Positions 2,977 to 12,702 of a DNA stretch of 64,000 bases are shown here, piece after piece. Under the pieces are notes generated by a model. That model had not been told where the DNA came from, ran no database searches, and saw only the letters and a list, made by a program, of their open reading frames with translations. Every line of letters starts with the position of its first letter. The stretch's first letter is position 1. The stretch comes from Pseudomonas eutrophicaquae. Lineage in GTDB: Bacteria; Pseudomonadota; Gammaproteobacteria; Pseudomonadales; Pseudomonadaceae. The translations under genes were made by a program, and so were the position numbers. Location of the stretch: NCBI RefSeq assembly GCF_023544715.1, contig NZ_JAMJEZ010000007.1:62001-126000 (forward strand), given 5' to 3'.

Positions 2977-5835
2977 ATGCACACCGACACCCACCGCGAG
3001 CACCCCCAGGCCGAGGCCGGCGAACTGGTCGCCACCGCCCCGGGCCAGCTGCGCGTGATCAAGCGCAACGGCACCGTTGTCCCCTATTCGGATGACAAGA
3101 TCACCGTCGCCATGACCAAGGCGTTCCTCGCCGTGGAAGGCAGCTCCGCCGCAGCCTCCTCGCGGATCCACGACACCGTGGCCCGGCTGACCGAGCAGGT
3201 CACCGCCACCTTCAAGCGTCGCATGCCCTCCGGTGGCACCATCCACATCGAAGAAATCCAGGATCAGGTCGAACTGGCCCTGATGCGCGCCGGCGAGCAG
3301 AAAGTCGCCCGCGACTACGTGCTCTACCGTGAAGCCCATGCCCAGGAGCGCGCCCGCCGCGCCGCTGCCGAGCAGGTGCAGGCCCACCCGACCATCCGCG
3401 TGACCCTAGCCAATGGCGAGAAGATCCCGCTGAACCTCAGCCGCCTACAGACCATCATCGGTGAGGCCTGCGAGGGGCTGGCCGAGGTGGACAGCGAGCT
3501 GATCCTGCGCGACACCCTGAAGAACCTCTACGACGGCGTCACCGAGCAGGATGTCAGCACCGCGCTGGTGATGACCGCGCGCACCCTGGTCGAGCGCGAG
3601 CCCAACTACAGCTACGTCACCGCTCGCCTGCTGATGGACACCCTGCGCGCTGAAGCGCTGGGCTTCCTCGGCGTTGCCGAGCGCGCCACCCACCACGAAA
3701 TGGCCGAGCTGTATGCCCGTGCACTGCCGGTGTACATCGACAAGGGCGTCGAATTCGAGCTGCTGGATGCGCGCCTGCGCGACTACGACCTGGCTCGCCT
3801 GGGGGCGGCGCTCGATCACCAGCGCGATCAGCAGTTCACCTACCTGGGTCTGCAGACCCTCTATGACCGCTACTTCCTGCACAAGAACGACGTGCGCTTC
3901 GAGCTGCCGCAGGTGTTCTTCATGCGCGTGGCCATGGGCCTGGCCATCGAGGAGCAGGACCGTGAAGCGCGCGCCATCGAGTTCTACAACCTGCTGTCCT
4001 CGTTCGACTACATGGCATCGACCCCGACCCTGTTCAACGCCGGCACCCTGCGCCCGCAGCTTTCCTCCTGCTACCTGACCACCGTGCCGGATGATCTGGG
4101 CGGCATCTACGACGCGATCCGCGACAACGCCCTGCTCTCCAAGTTTGCCGGTGGCCTCGGCAACGACTGGACCCCGGTGCGCGCACTGGGCTCCTACATC
4201 AAGGGTACCAACGGCAAATCCCAGGGCGTGGTGCCGTTCCTCAAGGTGGTCAACGACACCGCCGTGGCGGTCAACCAGGGCGGCAAGCGCAAGGGGGCGG
4301 TCTGCGCCTATCTCGAGACCTGGCATCTGGACATCGAGGAATTTCTCGAGCTGCGCAAGAACACCGGTGACGACCGTCGCCGCACCCACGACATGAACAC
4401 CGCGAACTGGATTCCCGACCTGTTCATGAAGCGCGTGTTCGACGATGGCGACTGGACCCTGTTCTCGCCGTCCGACGTGCCGGATCTGCATGATCTGACC
4501 GGCAAGGCCTTCGAGGAGCGCTACGAGTACTACGAAGCCCTGGCCGGCTACGGCAAGCTCAAGCTGCACAAGACCCTCAAGGCCAAGGATCTGTGGCGCA
4601 AGATGCTCTCGATGCTGTTCGAGACCGGCCACCCGTGGCTGACCTTCAAGGACCCGTGCAACCTGCGTAGCCCGCAGCAACATGTCGGTGTCGTGCACAG
4701 CTCCAACCTGTGCACCGAGATCACCCTGAACACCAACAAGGATGAGATCGCGGTCTGCAACCTCGGCTCGATCAACCTGGTCAACCACATCAAGGATGGC
4801 CAGCTGGACACCGCCAAGCTGGCGCGCACCGTCAAGACTGCCGTGCGCATGCTGGACAACGTCATCGATATCAACTACTACAGCGTGCCCCAGGCGCAGA
4901 ACGCCAACTTCAAGCACCGCCCGGTCGGCCTTGGGATCATGGGCTTCCAGGATGCCCTGTACCTGCAGCACATCGCCTACGGCAGCGACGCCGCGGTGGC
5001 GTTTGCCGATCAGTCGATGGAGGCGATCAGCTACTTCGCCATCCAGGCCTCCTGTGACCTGGCCGAGGAGCGCGGCGCCTATTCGAGCTTCGACGGCTCG
5101 CTGTGGAGCCGGGGTGTCCTGCCGCTCGACTCGCTGGAGATCCTCACCGAACAGCGTGGCGCGCAGTACATCGAGGTCGATCGCAACAGCACCCTGGACT
5201 GGGCGCCGATCCGCGAGCGCGTCAAGCGCGGTATCCGCAACTCCAACATCATGGCCATCGCCCCGACCGCGACCATCTCCAACATCGTTGGCGTGTCGCA
5301 GTCGATCGAGCCGACTTACCAGAACCTCTATGTGAAGTCGAACCTCTCCGGCGAGTTCACCGTGATCAACCCGTATCTGGTGCGCGACCTCAAGGCACGC
5401 GGCCTGTGGGATGCGGTGATGGTCAACGACCTCAAGTACTACGACGGCTCGGTGCAGCAGATCGAGCGCATCCCGGCCGACCTCAAGGCGCTGTATGCCA
5501 CCGCCTTCGAGGTGGATACCCGCTGGATCGTCGAGGCCGCCAGCCGCCGCCAGAAGTGGATCGATCAGGCCCAATCGCTGAACCTGTACATTGCCGGCGC
5601 CTCGGGCAAGAAGCTCGATGTGACCTATCGCATGGCCTGGTTCCGTGGCCTGAAGACCACCTACTACCTCCGCGCGCTGGCCGCCACCAGCACCGAGAAA
5701 TCGACCATCAACACCGGCAAGCTCAACGCCGTCAGCTCGGCCATCGATGAAACCCTGCCCAGCGCCGAGCCCAAGCCGGCCCCGGTGCCGCAGGCCTGCT
5801 CGATCGACAACCCCGACTGCGAAGCCTGCCAGTAA
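2977..5835 (+). CDS. nrdA: Class Ia ribonucleoside-diphosphate reductase, alpha subunit
   Basis: Reduces ribonucleoside diphosphates to deoxy forms for DNA synthesis; partner of NrdB. The N-terminus carries at least two ATP-cone regions (about residues 22-110 and 125-215), the allosteric activity domain, as in the long Pseudomonas NrdA (~960 aa; here 952). Catalytic residues are visible: C365 in SSCYL, the N577-x-C579-x-E581 radical site in NLCTE, and C594 in VCNLGS as the second active-site thiol. The C-terminal swinging redox pair is CEAC at 948-951. I chose ATG 2977 over GTG 2965 because GGAG at 2967-2970 sits 6 nt before it. nrdB follows after 177 bp. Confidence 0.97.
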   Translation: MHTDTHREHPQAEAGELVATAPGQLRVIKRNGTVVPYSDDKITVAMTKAFLAVEGSSAAASSRIHDTVARLTEQVTATFKRRMPSGGTIHIEEIQDQVELALMRAGEQKVARDYVLYREAHAQERARRAAAEQVQAHPTIRVTLANGEKIPLNLSRLQTIIGEACEGLAEVDSELILRDTLKNLYDGVTEQDVSTALVMTARTLVEREPNYSYVTARLLMDTLRAEALGFLGVAERATHHEMAELYARALPVYIDKGVEFELLDARLRDYDLARLGAALDHQRDQQFTYLGLQTLYDRYFLHKNDVRFELPQVFFMRVAMGLAIEEQDREARAIEFYNLLSSFDYMASTPTLFNAGTLRPQLSSCYLTTVPDDLGGIYDAIRDNALLSKFAGGLGNDWTPVRALGSYIKGTNGKSQGVVPFLKVVNDTAVAVNQGGKRKGAVCAYLETWHLDIEEFLELRKNTGDDRRRTHDMNTANWIPDLFMKRVFDDGDWTLFSPSDVPDLHDLTGKAFEERYEYYEALAGYGKLKLHKTLKAKDLWRKMLSMLFETGHPWLTFKDPCNLRSPQQHVGVVHSSNLCTEITLNTNKDEIAVCNLGSINLVNHIKDGQLDTAKLARTVKTAVRMLDNVIDINYYSVPQAQNANFKHRPVGLGIMGFQDALYLQHIAYGSDAAVAFADQSMEAISYFAIQASCDLAEERGAYSSFDGSLWSRGVLPLDSLEILTEQRGAQYIEVDRNSTLDWAPIRERVKRGIRNSNIMAIAPTATISNIVGVSQSIEPTYQNLYVKSNLSGEFTVINPYLVRDLKARGLWDAVMVNDLKYYDGSVQQIERIPADLKALYATAFEVDTRWIVEAASRRQKWIDQAQSLNLYIAGASGKKLDVTYRMAWFRGLKTTYYLRALAATSTEKSTINTGKLNAVSSAIDETLPSAEPKPAPVPQACSIDNPDCEACQ

Positions 5836-6012: not shown

Positions 6013-7263
6013 ATGCTGAGCTGGGATGAATTCGATACCGAGGACACCGTCGTCGCGACCCGCCCGAGCACACCGGCCCAGGCGGCCAGTGCCGAGCGCC
6101 ACAACGGCCTGGACAGCGACGGTGATGCCGCCGCCCATGATGCCCGTGCCGTGACCGCCGACGATTCCGACGCCGTGGCCCGTGCCAAGGCCGCCCTGAA
6201 CGATCTGGACATCCAGGAAGGCCTCGAGGATCTGGAAGGCGCCAGCGCGCGGGTGCGCGTGGACGAGAAGCGCATGATCAACTGCCGCGCCGACCTCAAC
6301 CAGCTGGTGCCGCTCAAGTACGACTGGGCCTGGCAGAAATACCTGGACGGCTGCGCCAACCACTGGATGCCGCAAGAGGTCAACATGACCGCGGACATCG
6401 CCCTGTGGAAGAGCGCTGACGGCCTGACCGAGGATGAGCGACGTATCGTCAAGCGCTCGCTGGGCTTCTTCTCCACCGCCGATTCGCTGGTCGCCAACAA
6501 CCTGGTGCTGGCCGTCTACCGGCTGATCACCAACCCCGAATGCCGCCAGTACATCCTGCGCCAGTCGTTCGAGGAAGCGATCCACACCCACGCCTACCAG
6601 TACTGCATCGAGTCGCTGGGCATGGACGAGGGCGAGATCTTCAACATGTACCACGAGATCCCGAGCGTGGCGAAGAAGGCCTCCTGGGGCCTCAAGTACA
6701 CCCGCTCGATCAGCGATCCGACCTTCACCACCGGCACCGTCGAGACCGACAAGCAGTTCCTGAAAAACCTGATCGCCTACTACTGCGTGCTGGAAGGCAT
6801 CTTCTTCTACTGCGGCTTTACCCAGATCCTCTCCATGGGCCGCCGCAACAAGATGACCGGCACGGCCGAGCAGTTCCAGTACATCCTGCGCGATGAGTCC
6901 ATGCACCTGAACTTCGGCATCGACATGATCAACCAGATCAAGATCGAGAACCCGCACCTGTGGGATGCCGAAATGAAGGACGAGGCCACCCAGATGATCC
7001 TGCAGGGGGCGCAGCTGGAGATTGAATACGCCCGCGATACCATGCCGCGCGGCGTGCTGGGCATGAACGCAGCGATGATGGAGGAATACCTCAAATTCAT
7101 CGCTAACCGCCGCCTGACCCAGATCGGCCTGCCGGAGCAGTACGCCGGGGTGAGCAATCCGTTCCCGTGGATGAGCGAGATCATGGACCTGAAGAAGGAG
7201 AAAAACTTCTTCGAGACGCGGGTGATCGAGTATCAGACCGGTGGTGCGTTGAGCTGGGATTGA
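6013..7263 (+). CDS. nrdB: Class Ia ribonucleoside-diphosphate reductase, beta subunit
   Basis: Carries the diiron-tyrosyl radical cofactor that starts catalysis in NrdA. Recognisable elements are the [11 protein letters not shown] segment with iron ligands and radical-tyrosine neighbourhood, and DESMHLNFG with later ligands. Length is 416 aa, as in P. aeruginosa. The start is well supported by AGGAG 7 nt upstream. The first ~75 residues are an acidic, low-complexity lead before the conserved core. LSWDEF occurs at the N-terminus and LSWD again at the extreme C-terminus, the tail that docks NrdB onto NrdA. A clear terminator follows. Confidence 0.97.
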
Positions 7264-7288
7264 TGCCCAGTAGCCACTGTCGTAACAG

Positions 7289-7312
7289 AGCCCCGCCTTG
7301 CGCGGGGCTTTC
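7289..7312 (+). terminator. Rho-independent terminator after nrdB
   Basis: AGCCCCGC (7289-7296) pairs with GCGGGGCT (7302-7309) around a 5-nt loop and is followed by TTC. It ends the nrdAB transcript and lies just before the convergent methyltransferase gene. Confidence 0.85.
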
Positions 7313-7323
7313 TGTCTCTGTCC

Positions 7324-8067
7324 TCAGCGCCTCACACAAGCAAACAATGCATTCCCCGCGCGGCCATCCCAGGGCAGCAGCTTCTGGTAGTCATGCGCGA
7401 ACACATGCACCTCAAAGTACGGCGCCAACAGCGCCTGCAGCTCATCAAAATCCACCGCCACCATCGGGTGCTCGTCCTGCCAGTGCTGGGTCTGCCCGGC
7501 CATGCGCCGTTCAATGCGCAGGCGCAGAGTCTGCTGCTCGCCCTCGCCGGGGTAATGCCAGCCGGAGCCGAAGCTGAACAGGCCATCGGCATGCTCGGCG
7601 CTGTGGCTGACGAAAGAGGCGTTGTCGATGCGCCGCTTGTCCACCGCGTTGAAGCAGAACAGCCCCTCTGCCGCCAGAGCGTGATGGGCGCTGGCAATAC
7701 AGGCCTGCAGCCGCTCGAGGCTGGAGCTGTAGTGGATCGAGTAGAGGAAGCAGGTGATCAGATCCTGCGGCTCGCTGACCGTGAAGGTGCACATGTCCTG
7801 GCAGGAGAACTGCGCCTCGGGGCAGCGCTGCGTGGCGCGATCGAGCATCGGCTGGTTGAGGTCGAGGCCGCTGCTGTAATAGCCCGCATCGATGAAGTGC
7901 CGCACATGGGGGCCGGTGCCACAAGCCAAGTCCAGATGCCGCTGTCCGCCGTTGCCAAACAGCTGCTGCAGGCGCTGCACGCAGTGGCTTTGCGCCGGGT
8001 AGTCGATGTCGGCGCACATCAGGTCGTAATAACCGGACAGGTCGTTGTAGAGGATGGTGCCGGTCAT
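7324..8067 (-). CDS. Class I SAM-dependent methyltransferase
   Basis: Predicted Rossmann-fold methyltransferase of unknown substrate. The SAM-binding motif I is LDLACGTGPHV near residue 45, followed by an acidic GLDLNQPML motif II region and a hydrophobic strand containing LITCFLYSIHY. The start is taken at ATG 8067, where MTGTILYNDL begins; an upstream ATG at 8103 is in frame but lacks a ribosome-binding site. Length 247 aa is normal for a stand-alone enzyme. It converges on nrdB. Nothing in the neighbourhood indicates whether the target is RNA, protein or a metabolite. Confidence 0.85.
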   Translation of the reverse strand: MTGTILYNDLSGYYDLMCADIDYPAQSHCVQRLQQLFGNGGQRHLDLACGTGPHVRHFIDAGYYSSGLDLNQPMLDRATQRCPEAQFSCQDMCTFTVSEPQDLITCFLYSIHYSSSLERLQACIASAHHALAAEGLFCFNAVDKRRIDNASFVSHSAEHADGLFSFGSGWHYPGEGEQQTLRLRIERRMAGQTQHWQDEHPMVAVDFDELQALLAPYFEVHVFAHDYQKLLPWDGRAGNALFACVRR

Positions 8068-8162
8068 GGCGTAGGTTCCGGGCGGATGTGGGGCGCGCAT
8101 CATAGCCTGATTGTCGGGACCGGTAGGCTACCGACAATCCGCCCGGACCAGCATGTGCTCGC

Positions 8163-8291
8163 TCAGCTGCCCTGCAGGCCAACCAGCACAAAACCGCTGA
8201 TGATGCCGGCCAGCGCAATCAGCCAGCCGATGCGGTAACCACGATCCTTGAGGGCACGGCGGGCGGGGTCTATGGGCTTTTTCTTTCTCAC
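8163..8291 (-). CDS. Small single-pass membrane protein, 42 aa
   Basis: Short frame from GTG 8291 with AGGTGA 4 nt upstream. The N-terminus is strongly basic (KKK, RR, KDR) and a single hydrophobic helix (GWLIALAGIISGFVLVGL) follows, ending LQGS. The positive-inside rule predicts the N-terminus in the cytoplasm. Codon use matches neighbouring genes. I do not recognise the family and assign no function. It lies between the methyltransferase gene and the CrcZ-like RNA, on the same strand as both. Confidence 0.5.
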   Translation of the reverse strand: MRKKKPIDPARRALKDRGYRIGWLIALAGIISGFVLVGLQGS

Positions 8292-8464
8292 GGGGTCACC
8301 TGTAACCGAGGGCAGTAAAGCGGGCTTGCAGGGCGTACCCGCGTGATGCGGACCGGAGCATGCCGGCCAGTCAGGCGGCCTTTTTAGGGAGGTTGTTGCG
8401 GCTTGTCCAGCCTCTTGCGATGAACAACCCACCGGCTGCGCAGTTACCCAGAGGCCAGATGCAC

Positions 8465-8793
8465 GAAGGGGAGCCTTTGGGCTCCCCTTCGAAGATGGCG
8501 TCTGATTTTTCTTATTGTTCTGCCGGATCTGTTGTTCTTGTTGTCGATCCGGTTGGGTGTGCGGCCCGTTGCTCCCAGGGGGAGCGTCCTGCACAAACGG
8601 ATTCCTTTGGATGCTGACGTCGCCGTCATCGTGCACGACTGACCGGTACTGGCGCTGCTGCTGGGCAGTTTTATTGTTCTCGCGCCGGTCGGGAGATTCC
8701 TTTCGGGCAACTCCTCTCCAAAAGAATCAGTTTGTTACGTTGCCTGCTGTTGTTCTTGTTGTTAAGGCTTCGTGACATCTTGTTCTTGTTGTA
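8465..8793 (-). ncRNA. Probable CrcZ/CrcX/CrcY-family sRNA (Hfq/Crc antagonist)
   Basis: On the minus strand this non-coding stretch carries at least six A-rich AAnAAnAA-like motifs. Copies of ACAACAAGAACAA-type sequence lie at about 8777-8793, 8747-8766 and 8528-8545; shorter ones (AACAAAC, GAACAATAA) lie near 8730-8738, 8669-8683 and 8501-8522. Repeated CA motifs are the hallmark of CrcZ-type RNAs, which sequester Hfq/Crc and relieve catabolite repression in Pseudomonas. A sigma54 promoter just upstream fits the CbrB/RpoN control known for this family. The 5' end is placed about 12 nt after the promoter GC element; the 3' end at a GAAGGGGAGCC/GGCTCCCCTTC hairpin (8466-8491), giving about 330 nt. 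It could extend further. No cbrB is adjacent, so this may be a CrcX or CrcY type. Confidence 0.75.
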
Positions 8794-8804
8794 CCGAAGA
8801 TATT

Positions 8805-8819
8805 GCAGTTAGCGTGCCA
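8805..8819 (-). promoter_or_regulatory. Sigma54 (-24/-12) promoter of the CrcZ-like sRNA
   Basis: The minus strand reads TGGCAC-GCTAAC-TGC. GG at 8818-8817 and GC at 8806-8805 are separated by exactly 10 nt, the invariant RpoN spacing. The predicted start is near 8793, where the first CA motif begins. Confidence 0.75.
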
Positions 8820-8848: not shown

Positions 8849-8974
8849 GTTACGCATCAGTCTGCTTGCGCAGACACCCTGCTAATCCTCCCCATCCGTT
8901 ACCGGTACACCCAGGGCAGGTGACAGCCAGGCGTGCTCCAGTAACACCACAACGACTCGGTAACGCCGGTAACA
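8849..8974. promoter_or_regulatory. Array of GTTAC/GTAAC elements, candidate CbrB upstream activating sites
   Basis: GTTAC occurs at 8849 and 8898, and GTAAC at 8941, 8960 and 8969, all within 30-155 bp upstream of the sigma54 promoter. Sigma54 promoters need an upstream enhancer-binding protein. CbrB sites at crcZ promoters are, as I recall, built from TGTTAC/GTAACA halves, so CbrB is the leading candidate. Confidence 0.5.
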
Positions 8975-8992: not shown

Positions 8993-9838
8993 TCAGGGCG
9001 TACCGAACAGCGCGGTCCAGTAGATCCCGGCATCACTCTGTGGATCGATGGCATAGGCCGCGCCCAACTCTTGGAACCGGGCATTCATCAGATTGGCGCA
9101 GTGGGCGGGGCTATCCAGCCAGCCGGTCAGCACCTGCGCCGGGGTGTCCAGAGCTGCTGCGATGTTTTCACCCACCGCCTGCCCTGCATAGCCCGCCAGC
9201 TCGGCACGATCCGCCGGGGTATAACCCTCGTGGTCGACATGGGCGAAGAAATTGCCATTGGCCATCGCCCGGCTATGGCGCTCGGCCAGCTCACCGAGCA
9301 AGGGATTCCAGCTCAGCGCCGGGGCCGCCGGATACGTTTGCTCGCCACAGCGGCGCGGCAGAGCACGAGCTGCATTGATGCCCTCCAGCAGCGTCTGCCC
9401 TTCGCGCTGCCAGTCCGCTAACCCGGCTGCCAGCAGCGGGCGGGCCAGCACGATGCGCCAGTCACGCTCAGCCTGATGGATGCCGATATGCACGAAGCGT
9501 GCATCCAACAGCGTTCGGCAGTAGTGCGCCTGCAGCAGGGCCATTGCCGCAGCCGCATCGCGCGGGCCAGACAGACGAATCGACTGGGCATGCACCATCG
9601 GATAGCCCGCCGCGACCAGCGCCGGCTGCAGTTCCTGGCCTTCGGGCAGGATCAGGCGTGCATCCGCACGCAGGGGTGGCAACTCGCCCAGCGCATCGCC
9701 CGCGCAGGCTTGCGGGGTGCTGCGGTAACGGTTGAGGGCGTCGAGCAAGGTGGATGCTTCACTGCCATGCGCGGCAGGCATGCCAAGGCTTGCGAGCAGT
9801 CCGGCCAGCAAGGGCCAGAGACGGAAAAGGCGGGACAT
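8993..9838 (-). CDS. Secreted CAP-superfamily (SCP/PR1-like) protein
   Basis: Residues 1-25 form a signal peptide ending AAHGSEA, so the protein is exported. The C-terminal ~120 residues form a CAP domain, with ERHSRAMANGNFFAHVDHEGY, AVGENIAAAL and WLDSPAHCANLMNARFQELG matching the family's HFxH, GEN and SPGHxxNL signatures. The N-terminal ~130 residues are less conserved and contain paired cysteines. Bacterial CAP proteins are envelope or secreted proteins of mostly unknown activity. Length 281 aa. Its 3' end abuts the enhancer region of the CrcZ-like RNA. Confidence 0.85.
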   Translation of the reverse strand: MSRLFRLWPLLAGLLASLGMPAAHGSEASTLLDALNRYRSTPQACAGDALGELPPLRADARLILPEGQELQPALVAAGYPMVHAQSIRLSGPRDAAAAMALLQAHYCRTLLDARFVHIGIHQAERDWRIVLARPLLAAGLADWQREGQTLLEGINAARALPRRCGEQTYPAAPALSWNPLLGELAERHSRAMANGNFFAHVDHEGYTPADRAELAGYAGQAVGENIAAALDTPAQVLTGWLDSPAHCANLMNARFQELGAAYAIDPQSDAGIYWTALFGTP

Positions 9839-10701: not shown

Positions 10702-12702
10702 ATGTCCCTGCCCCAACACCATCTGGAACTGCTCAGCCCCGCGCGGGATGTCACCATCGCCAAGGAGGCCATCCTGCATGGTGCCGATGCCGTGTACATC
10801 GGCGGCCCAAGTTTCGGTGCCCGGCACAACGCCGAGAACAGCGTGGCGGAGATCGCCGAGCTGGTGACCTTCGCTCATCTGTTCCATGCGCGGGTGTTCG
10901 TCACCCTCAACACCATCCTGCATGACGACGAGCTGGAGCCGGCGCGCCGGCTGATCCACGAACTGTACAACGCTGGGGTCGATGCGCTGATCGTGCAGGA
11001 CATGGGCATCATGGAGCTGGATATCCCGCCGATCGAGATCCACGCCAGCACCCAGACCGACATCCGCAGCGTGGAAAAAGCCAAGTTCCTCGCCGATGCC
11101 GGCTTCTCCCAGCTGGTGCTGGCCCGCGAGCTGAACCTTGCGGAAATCCGCCAGATCAGCGATTCGGTGGACTCGACCATCGAGTTCTTCATCCACGGTG
11201 CGCTGTGCGTGGCCTTCTCCGGGCAGTGCTACATCTCCCACGCGCAGACCGGGCGCAGCGCCAACCGCGGCGACTGCTCGCAAGCCTGCCGCCTGCCCTA
11301 CACCCTCAAGGACGAGAGCGGCGCAGTGGTCGCCTACGAGAAGCACCTGCTGTCGATGAAGGACAACAACCAGAGCGCCAACCTGCGCGCGCTGATCGAC
11401 GCCGGCGTGCGCTCGTTCAAGATCGAGGGGCGCTACAAAGATATGGGCTATGTGAAGAACATCACCGCCTACTACCGCCAGCGCCTCGACGAAATCCTCG
11501 CGGAACGTCCGGAGCTGGCGCGCGCCTCTAGCGGGCGTACCGAGCACTTCTTTGTCCCCGACCCGGACCGCACCTTCCACCGCGGCAGCACCGATTACTT
11601 CGTCAATGACCGTATGATCGACATCGGTGCCTTCGACTCGCCCAAATTCACTGGCCTGCCGGTCGGTGAGGTGCAGAAAGTCGGCAAGCGCGACCTGCTC
11701 GTCAGCACCACCGATCCGCTGACCAACGGCGACGGCCTCAACGTGCTGGTCAAGCGCGAGGTGGTCGGTTTCCGCGCCAGCGTGGTCGAGCTGCTCGGCC
11801 AGAGCGAGGAAGACGGCGCGCCGCGCTGGCAGTACCGCGTCGAGCCCAACGAGATGCCGGAGGCGCTGCGCCGCCTGCAGCCCAAACACCCGCTCAACCG
11901 CAACCTCGACCACAACTGGCAGCAGGCGCTGCAGAAGACCTCCGCCGAGCGCCGCATCGGCGTGCGCTGGCAGGCCGCGCTGAGTGCCGAACGCATCAGC
12001 CTCATGGTCAGCAGCGAGGACGGCAGCACCGCCTCAGTGAGCCTTGATGGCCCGTTCGGCGCCGCCAACAAGCCGGAGCAGGCGCGCGAGCAGCTACGCG
12101 AGCTGCTCGGCCAGCTGGGCAACACGATCTATCACGCCGATGGCGTGGAGATCGCTGCCACAGAGCTGCCCTTCGTGCCCAACTCGCAGCTCAAGGCGCT
12201 GCGCCGCGAGGCTGTCGAGGCGCTCACCGCGGCGCGTCTGGCGGTGCATCCGCGCGGCAGCCGCAAGCCGGTCAGCGTACCGCCGCCGGTCTACCCGGAG
12301 TCGCACCTCTCCTTCCTCGCCAACGTCTACAACGAGAAGGCGCGCGCCTTCTACCACCGCTTTGGCGTGCAGCTGATCGATGCGGCCTACGAGGCGCACG
12401 AGGAAACCGGCGACGTGCCGGTGATGATCACCAAGCACTGCCTGCGCTTCTCCTTCAACCTCTGCCCCAAGCAGACCAAGGGCTACACCGGGGTGCGCAC
12501 CAAGGTCGCGCCGATGCAACTGGTGCACGGCGACGAGGTGCTGACCCTGAAGTTCGACTGCAAGCCGTGCGAGATGCACGTGGTTGGCAAGATCAAGGGG
12601 CACATCCTCAATCTGCCGCAGCCGGGCAGCGCGGCGAGCATTGTCGGTCAGATCAGCCCGGAAGACCTGCTGAAGACCATCAAGCGCCAGCCGCTGCACT
12701 GA
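10702..12702 (+). CDS. rlhA: 23S rRNA 5-hydroxycytidine C2501 synthase (U32 family)
   Basis: Member of the U32 'peptidase' family, now known as prephenate-dependent RNA hydroxylation proteins; RlhA (YdcP) modifies 23S rRNA C2501. The N-terminus LELLSPARDVTIAKEAILHGADAVYIGG is typical. The central FFIHGALCVAFSGQCYIS segment and GDCSQACRLPY carry the cysteines likely to hold an iron-sulfur cluster. A C-terminal cysteine set (CLRFSFNLCP, FDCKPCEM) is also present. At 666 aa it matches long RlhA (~650) rather than short TrhP (~450). ATG 10702 is chosen because the family begins there. The 3' end overlaps zapA by 23 bp, tail to tail. Confidence 0.9.
   Translation: MSLPQHHLELLSPARDVTIAKEAILHGADAVYIGGPSFGARHNAENSVAEIAELVTFAHLFHARVFVTLNTILHDDELEPARRLIHELYNAGVDALIVQDMGIMELDIPPIEIHASTQTDIRSVEKAKFLADAGFSQLVLARELNLAEIRQISDSVDSTIEFFIHGALCVAFSGQCYISHAQTGRSANRGDCSQACRLPYTLKDESGAVVAYEKHLLSMKDNNQSANLRALIDAGVRSFKIEGRYKDMGYVKNITAYYRQRLDEILAERPELARASSGRTEHFFVPDPDRTFHRGSTDYFVNDRMIDIGAFDSPKFTGLPVGEVQKVGKRDLLVSTTDPLTNGDGLNVLVKREVVGFRASVVELLGQSEEDGAPRWQYRVEPNEMPEALRRLQPKHPLNRNLDHNWQQALQKTSAERRIGVRWQAALSAERISLMVSSEDGSTASVSLDGPFGAANKPEQAREQLRELLGQLGNTIYHADGVEIAATELPFVPNSQLKALRREAVEALTAARLAVHPRGSRKPVSVPPPVYPESHLSFLANVYNEKARAFYHRFGVQLIDAAYEAHEETGDVPVMITKHCLRFSFNLCPKQTKGYTGVRTKVAPMQLVHGDEVLTLKFDCKPCEMHVVGKIKGHILNLPQPGSAASIVGQISPEDLLKTIKRQPLH

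Follow-up and report, generated by a model that had tools for sequence, protein, structure and literature searches.

A probable crcY-type member of the CrcZ small RNA family beside a CAP-domain gene in Pseudomonas eutrophicaquae, and its dispersed relatives across the genus

Small RNAs of the CrcZ family are described as being induced by CbrB together with sigma54 when the preferred carbon source is gone, and as titrating Hfq with Crc through their A-rich motifs (PMC8871633, PMC5429807). Second copies named CrcY are already known from P. putida and Azotobacter vinelandii (PMC5429807, PMC6292655), and up to three family members have been named in one species, P. syringae (PMC8871633, PMC6296734). 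In the accounts given there, CrcY of P. putida and both CrcX and CrcY of P. syringae are extra CbrB/sigma54-driven copies that titrate Hfq/Crc (PMC8871633, PMC6296734), which is the role we propose here for an RNA of Pseudomonas eutrophicaquae. The sites of such copies vary: crcY of P. putida occupies a different chromosomal site, which is reached by a co-transcript from PP3539 (PMC6292655). Work on P. fluorescens SBW25, which has both crcZ and crcY, has raised the question of why a bacterium carries several titrating copies (PMC8871633).

The described system closest to the one examined here is CrcY of A. vinelandii which, like our copy, is a second family RNA away from cbrB and is reported with a sigma54 promoter, CbrB sites and five A-rich motifs (PMC5429807, PMC6292655). 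Convergent hypothetical genes are reported on either side of it (PMC6292655, PMC5429807), and its defining place is between Avin04820 and Avin04790.

We analysed a stretch of 64,000 nucleotides of P. eutrophicaquae (assembly GCF_023544715.1, contig NZ_JAMJEZ010000007.1, positions 62,001 to 126,000), hereafter the window. An earlier note, made from the letters of the sequence, had pointed to a CrcZ/CrcX/CrcY-like RNA on the minus strand and had named a search with the Rfam CrcZ covariance model as a check. That search bears the proposal out: model RF01675 matches positions 8436–8815 of the minus strand over its full length (model positions 1–398) with 166.3 bits, against a curated cut-off of 95, and in a scan of the window at curated cut-offs the sole other match is a tRNA. 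The main features of the RNA and its promoter are as follows.

8436–8793, minus strand: probable crcY-type CrcZ-family small RNA (Rfam match with its 5' end trimmed by promoter spacing; fold z-score)
8805–8818, minus strand: sigma54 promoter of the -24/-12 type, GG-N10-GC (sequence; present in 29 of 29 genus copies)
8780–8790, minus strand: CA motif cluster 1, predicted A-rich Hfq site, probability of being unpaired 0.98
8750–8763, minus strand: CA motif cluster 2, probability of being unpaired 0.99
8671–8678, minus strand: CA motif 3, probability of being unpaired 0.99
8532–8542, minus strand: CA motif cluster 4, probability of being unpaired 1.0
8506–8519, minus strand: CA motif cluster 5, probability of being unpaired 0.99
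8464–8491, minus strand: 3' hairpin of 12 pairs with a 4-nt loop (predicted fold; terminator-like)

The promoter is as perfect as had been claimed, with GG at 8818–8817, GC at 8806–8805 and a spacer of exactly 10 nt. The Rfam match begins at 8815 because the model extends over promoter bases. The first CA motif starts 14 nt past the GC in 27 of the 29 genus copies, the window copy among them, and this spacing therefore places the predicted 5' end near 8793, the start that the earlier note had given. The 3' end is probably just past the hairpin, at about 8460, so that an RNA of roughly 335–360 nt is predicted. The hairpin itself had also been anticipated; no clear T/U run follows it at 8464–8491, and a terminator scan lists nothing there.

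At least six CA motifs had been proposed, a count which holds if overlapping matches to AAnAAnAA are added up (11) and falls to five when the matches are merged into non-overlapping clusters. None of 2000 dinucleotide shuffles of the stretch reached five non-overlapping motifs (mean 0.44, maximum 4). The window RNA folds with a z-score of -6.1, and none of 100 shuffles was equally stable. In the consensus fold of the 29 genus copies, 17 of the 62 pairs have changed on both sides with pairing preserved, the CA motifs lie in single-stranded regions, and the 3' hairpin is likewise maintained through two-sided changes. Near its 5' end, the window copy is missing a unit of roughly 27 nt with one CA motif, a gap that would fit a deletion between repeats of the CA unit.

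Upstream of the promoter, the published CbrB site reads TGTTAC-N12-14-GTAACA-N15-19-GTAACA (PMC8871633), and two of its three subsites are recognisable in the window:

8941–8946, minus strand: predicted CbrB subsite F1, TGTTAC, 128 nt upstream of the -24 GG
8897–8902, minus strand: predicted CbrB subsite R2, GTAACG

F1 and R2 keep the family spacing, and no recognisable sequence is found where R1 would be expected, at about 8921–8926. Of 200 mononucleotide shuffles, 2 equalled the window copy, with its F1 and R2 and no R1, in their fit to the three-part CbrB model. We searched the nine genus genomes with the pattern TGTTAC-N12-15-GTAAC-N15-19-GTAAC and obtained 27 exact matches, every one of which precedes a CrcZ-family match of the same strand by 103–105 nt; the reversed control gave none. 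Since the exact pattern occurs exclusively upstream of these RNAs, it is a good finder of them within the genus, which misses 2 of the 29 copies, one in G004 and the window copy. In P. putida crcY, substitution of R1 is reported to be without effect on expression, and substitution of F1 to reduce it most (PMC6296734). CbrB activation of the window copy, which keeps F1 and R2, is therefore likely, though not certain. The copies of relatives also contain an A/T-rich stretch, which we take to resemble an IHF site, and this stretch is altered in the window copy.

The genes on either side of the RNA are not cbrB and pcnB, as had been noted, and are instead the following.

8993–9838, minus strand: upstream neighbour, gene for a CAP-domain protein (PF00188)
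8163–8294, minus strand: downstream neighbour, open reading frame with a GTG start for a 43-aa hydrophobic protein

A Pfam search of the 43-aa protein found no family above its cut-off. Our genus set consists of nine genomes, from G000, the window's own, to G008. A CAP homologue upstream and a 43-aa homologue downstream of an RNA copy occur in the same six of the eight other genomes, and we refer to this arrangement as site B, which comprises seven copies (G000, G002 and G004 to G008). The neighbours of all copies were called by a crude gene-calling procedure. At site B, the distance from the RNA up to the CAP gene is 0.2–0.6 kb in all genomes but G007, where it is 2.3 kb. On the downstream side, the 43-aa gene is typically 0.6 kb away (0.63 kb at the least in the six other genomes), but 2.8 kb in G002 and 0.14 kb in the window. 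In G007 (locus L133, contig C38), the upstream CAP match comes in two parts, the main one 2.3 kb from the RNA and a 28-aa piece 0.2 kb from it. Other reading frames separate the two parts, as if something had inserted into the gene.

Convergent genes may link this site to A. vinelandii. In G005, the RNA is flanked by the CAP gene and the next gene, which converge on it, as is described for A. vinelandii crcY. In G007 the nearest genes are also convergent, but other genes lie between the main CAP part and the RNA. By position, the window copy therefore most likely corresponds to A. vinelandii crcY, the locus being compared by its published description. The two differ in that the window copy is without a recognisable R1 and without one CA unit, and has its downstream neighbour on the same strand. 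The window copy adds a new member to a known family, probably at an already known locus.

In G004, G006, G007 and G008, the 43-aa gene is followed by a methyltransferase gene and then by nrdB, which is the window's order, with nrdB 4–7 kb from the RNA. The intervening genes of these four genomes are absent from the window (6013–8294), and nrdB there lies within about 1.2 kb of the RNA. An association of the RNA with nrdAB was considered and rejected: among 80 named nrdB loci of other Pseudomonadaceae, several of which end early at contig ends, none had a CrcZ-family match nearby (nhmmer, E up to 1e-3), a result that shows only that there is no general link between the RNA and nrdB. The CAP gene was found at 1 of these 80 loci and the 43-aa gene at none.

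CrcZ-family RNAs are widespread in the family, with two to five copies per genome in this genus. In a survey of 57 genomes, for which up to 19 candidates per genome were scored and all counts are therefore lower bounds, at least 34 of 36 family genomes had a match and at least 32 had one above the curated cut-off; outside the genus, the largest copy count was at least 3. For the genus, a second run that scored all candidates left the counts as they were, at 2, 4, 5, 2, 4, 3, 3, 3 and 3 copies for G000 to G008, a total of 29. By their neighbours, seven of these are at cbrB–pcnB, seven at site B and 15 elsewhere. A 14-nt sequence, GGAGAGGAGTTGCC, is present in all 22 genus copies that are not linked to cbrB, the window's included, and in none of the seven cbrB-linked ones; it is also absent from all 13 CrcZ-family copies of other genera. 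Because of this signature, and because the CAP/43-aa locus is common to six of the eight other genus genomes, we call the window copy crcY-type. The copies away from cbrB that could be placed in other genera have other neighbours than the window copy, and the letter names therefore need not mean common descent.

Seven of the genus genomes have a CrcZ-family copy between cbrB and pcnB. In G006 and G008 (L187 and L188), only about 140 nt separate cbrB from the following pcnB, and a search of this interval (nhmmer, E up to 1) gave no CrcZ-family match; each of these two genomes has three dispersed copies. We aligned paralogues within genomes (36 pairs, with 1.5 kb of flank). Counted from the Rfam start, their homology reaches no farther than about -165 on one side and +396 on the other. 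In many pairs the alignment is shorter, and in that of G000 it covers only about 195 nt; the only block of homology outside these limits is one of 55–59 nt in G004. As the homology runs from the CbrB sites to just past the hairpin, the duplicated unit is a complete regulatory cassette. On balance, and with modest confidence, we favour a genus-wide expansion of this cassette, which measures about 525 bp and comprises the CbrB sites, sigma54 promoter, RNA and hairpin. It would have reached 2–5 copies per genome and, apart from cbrB, five to seven sites, a range given because two of the sites, D and G, have some neighbour genes in common with site C and the site labels are thus not fully independent. 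By this account, the decoy pool of the two species (of nine) that lack crcZ at cbrB would come from dispersed copies only, CbrB's best sites would serve decoy dosage, and the window copy would be a cassette with a diverging CbrB site.

The RNA tree, built from 40 of at least 69 survey matches and leaving out the weak matches of G013 and G029 (65 and 69 bits), places the window copy beside the crcZ of its own genome and one G003 copy with a support of 54. The other site-B copies fall together with some copies from other sites in an adjoining clade with a support of 52. The tree is too weak to prove shared descent with the site-B copies, and we therefore relied on the neighbours and the signature instead. 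Both G000 copies have long branches (crcZ 0.77, window copy 0.70), and since that of crcZ is equally long, fast divergence is not peculiar to the window copy.

The window's genome (57 contigs, estimated completeness 99.85%) holds two CrcZ-family matches. Besides the window copy, there is a match of 200.7 bits (L001) between the gene of an NtrC-type regulator and pcnB on contig C54, and it is this copy that holds the place of CrcZ in the narrow sense. The regulator is 80–84% identical to the corresponding regulators of the other eight genomes of the genus and was named cbrB on that identity and its position; the adjoining kinase gene was named cbrA-like by position and domain. No NCBIfam model reached its cut-off for either protein. 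Set against CrcZ (RF01675, at cbrB–pcnB), the window copy is alike in its covariance match, promoter type, CA motifs, fold and 3' hairpin, and differs in not being beside cbrB, in having five CA clusters where the crcZ of G000 has six, and in carrying the 14-nt signature.

Several other readings of the window copy were weighed. The earlier note had left it open whether this is another family member or a relocated locus, and the first of these options stands. That the window copy is crcZ itself, the sole member of the family moved away from cbrB, could draw on nothing but the lack of an adjoining cbrB; with cbrB–crcZ–pcnB intact on another contig of the same genome, a move is ruled out for practical purposes. 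We also consider it very improbable that the stretch is mainly a long leader of the downstream genes for the 43-aa protein and the methyltransferase. These genes are on the same strand, with about 142 nt from the Rfam end to the 43-aa gene, and the hairpin has no strong U run after it, yet copies at other sites have unrelated downstream genes, often on the opposite strand, and homology between paralogues stops at or slightly past the hairpin.

More weight is due to the proposal that the window copy is decaying: CbrB would activate it weakly or not at all any more, in a genome that has been reduced but retains crcZ. The copy has lost R1, one CA unit and part of the outer stem of the 3' hairpin, its bit score is the lowest of the 29 genus copies, its branch is long, and its genome is the smallest of the nine (2.55 Mb against 3.2–4.7 Mb). 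However, the G000 crcZ is on as long a branch, the GG-N10-GC, F1, R2, five exposed CA clusters and the inner hairpin have been kept although the linkers diverged, R1 is reported as dispensable in P. putida crcY (PMC6296734), and a G002 copy (L118) also lacks the same first CA unit, in part. We therefore regard decay as unlikely. About as doubtful, in our judgement, is that the RNA is a decoy under a different or additional regulator, so that the two RNAs of this genome answer different signals and divide the labour: the altered arrangement of the CbrB site and extra TGTTAC/GTTAC boxes farther upstream would fit this, but F1 and R2 stand at the spacing typical of the family. On the whole, we are confident that the window RNA is a crcY-type member of the CrcZ/CrcY/CrcX family, which would act as a CbrB/sigma54-driven decoy of Hfq and Crc.

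The partners that such a decoy would need are encoded in the same genome: a CbrA/CbrB-like pair, RpoN, Hfq and a candidate for crc. The last is a 259-aa exonuclease-III-like protein (also by NCBIfam) whose gene is divergent from pyrE; a second protein of this genome is the better match to exonuclease III, and pyrE is placed upstream of crc in one published description (PMC6292655), so that the 259-aa protein fits Crc. By analogy with the characterised relatives, from which transcription, CbrB dependence, Hfq/Crc binding and a physiological role would carry over, we propose the following course of events. On a poor carbon source, CbrA/CbrB would become active and CbrB would bind about 80–130 nt upstream of the promoter, thereby activating sigma54 RNA polymerase at the GG-N10-GC, and the RNA would be made. 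Its five unpaired A-rich CA clusters would then bind Hfq with Crc, which would be drawn off the CA motifs of catabolic mRNAs, relieving translational repression. The window RNA would in this way add to the decoy pool supplied by the cbrB-linked crcZ.

For annotation, the gain is a clear crcY-type copy together with a marker for its locus, the CAP gene and the 43-aa gene. What matters more than the window copy alone, however, is the multi-copy pattern, together with the finding that two species have no crcZ beside cbrB. Relatives with three to five decoy RNAs, two of them lacking a cbrB-linked crcZ, provide a natural experiment on why copies are retained, whether for dosage or for separate roles. 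No report of four or five CrcZ-family copies in Azotobacter appeared among the papers listed by our literature searches.

Two further observations concern individual genomes of the set. A match to nifD was found in seven of the nine genomes and none in G000 and G003; taken with the A. vinelandii literature, this points to Azotobacter as the probable genus. G000, which has no nifD match and, at 2.55 Mb, is smaller than the other eight, may be a reduced, non-diazotrophic member of the genus. In G001 (locus L112, contig C10), two copies of one strand, at 4802–5194 and 11175–11568, are separated by about 6 kb, and both carry their own exact three-part CbrB pattern.
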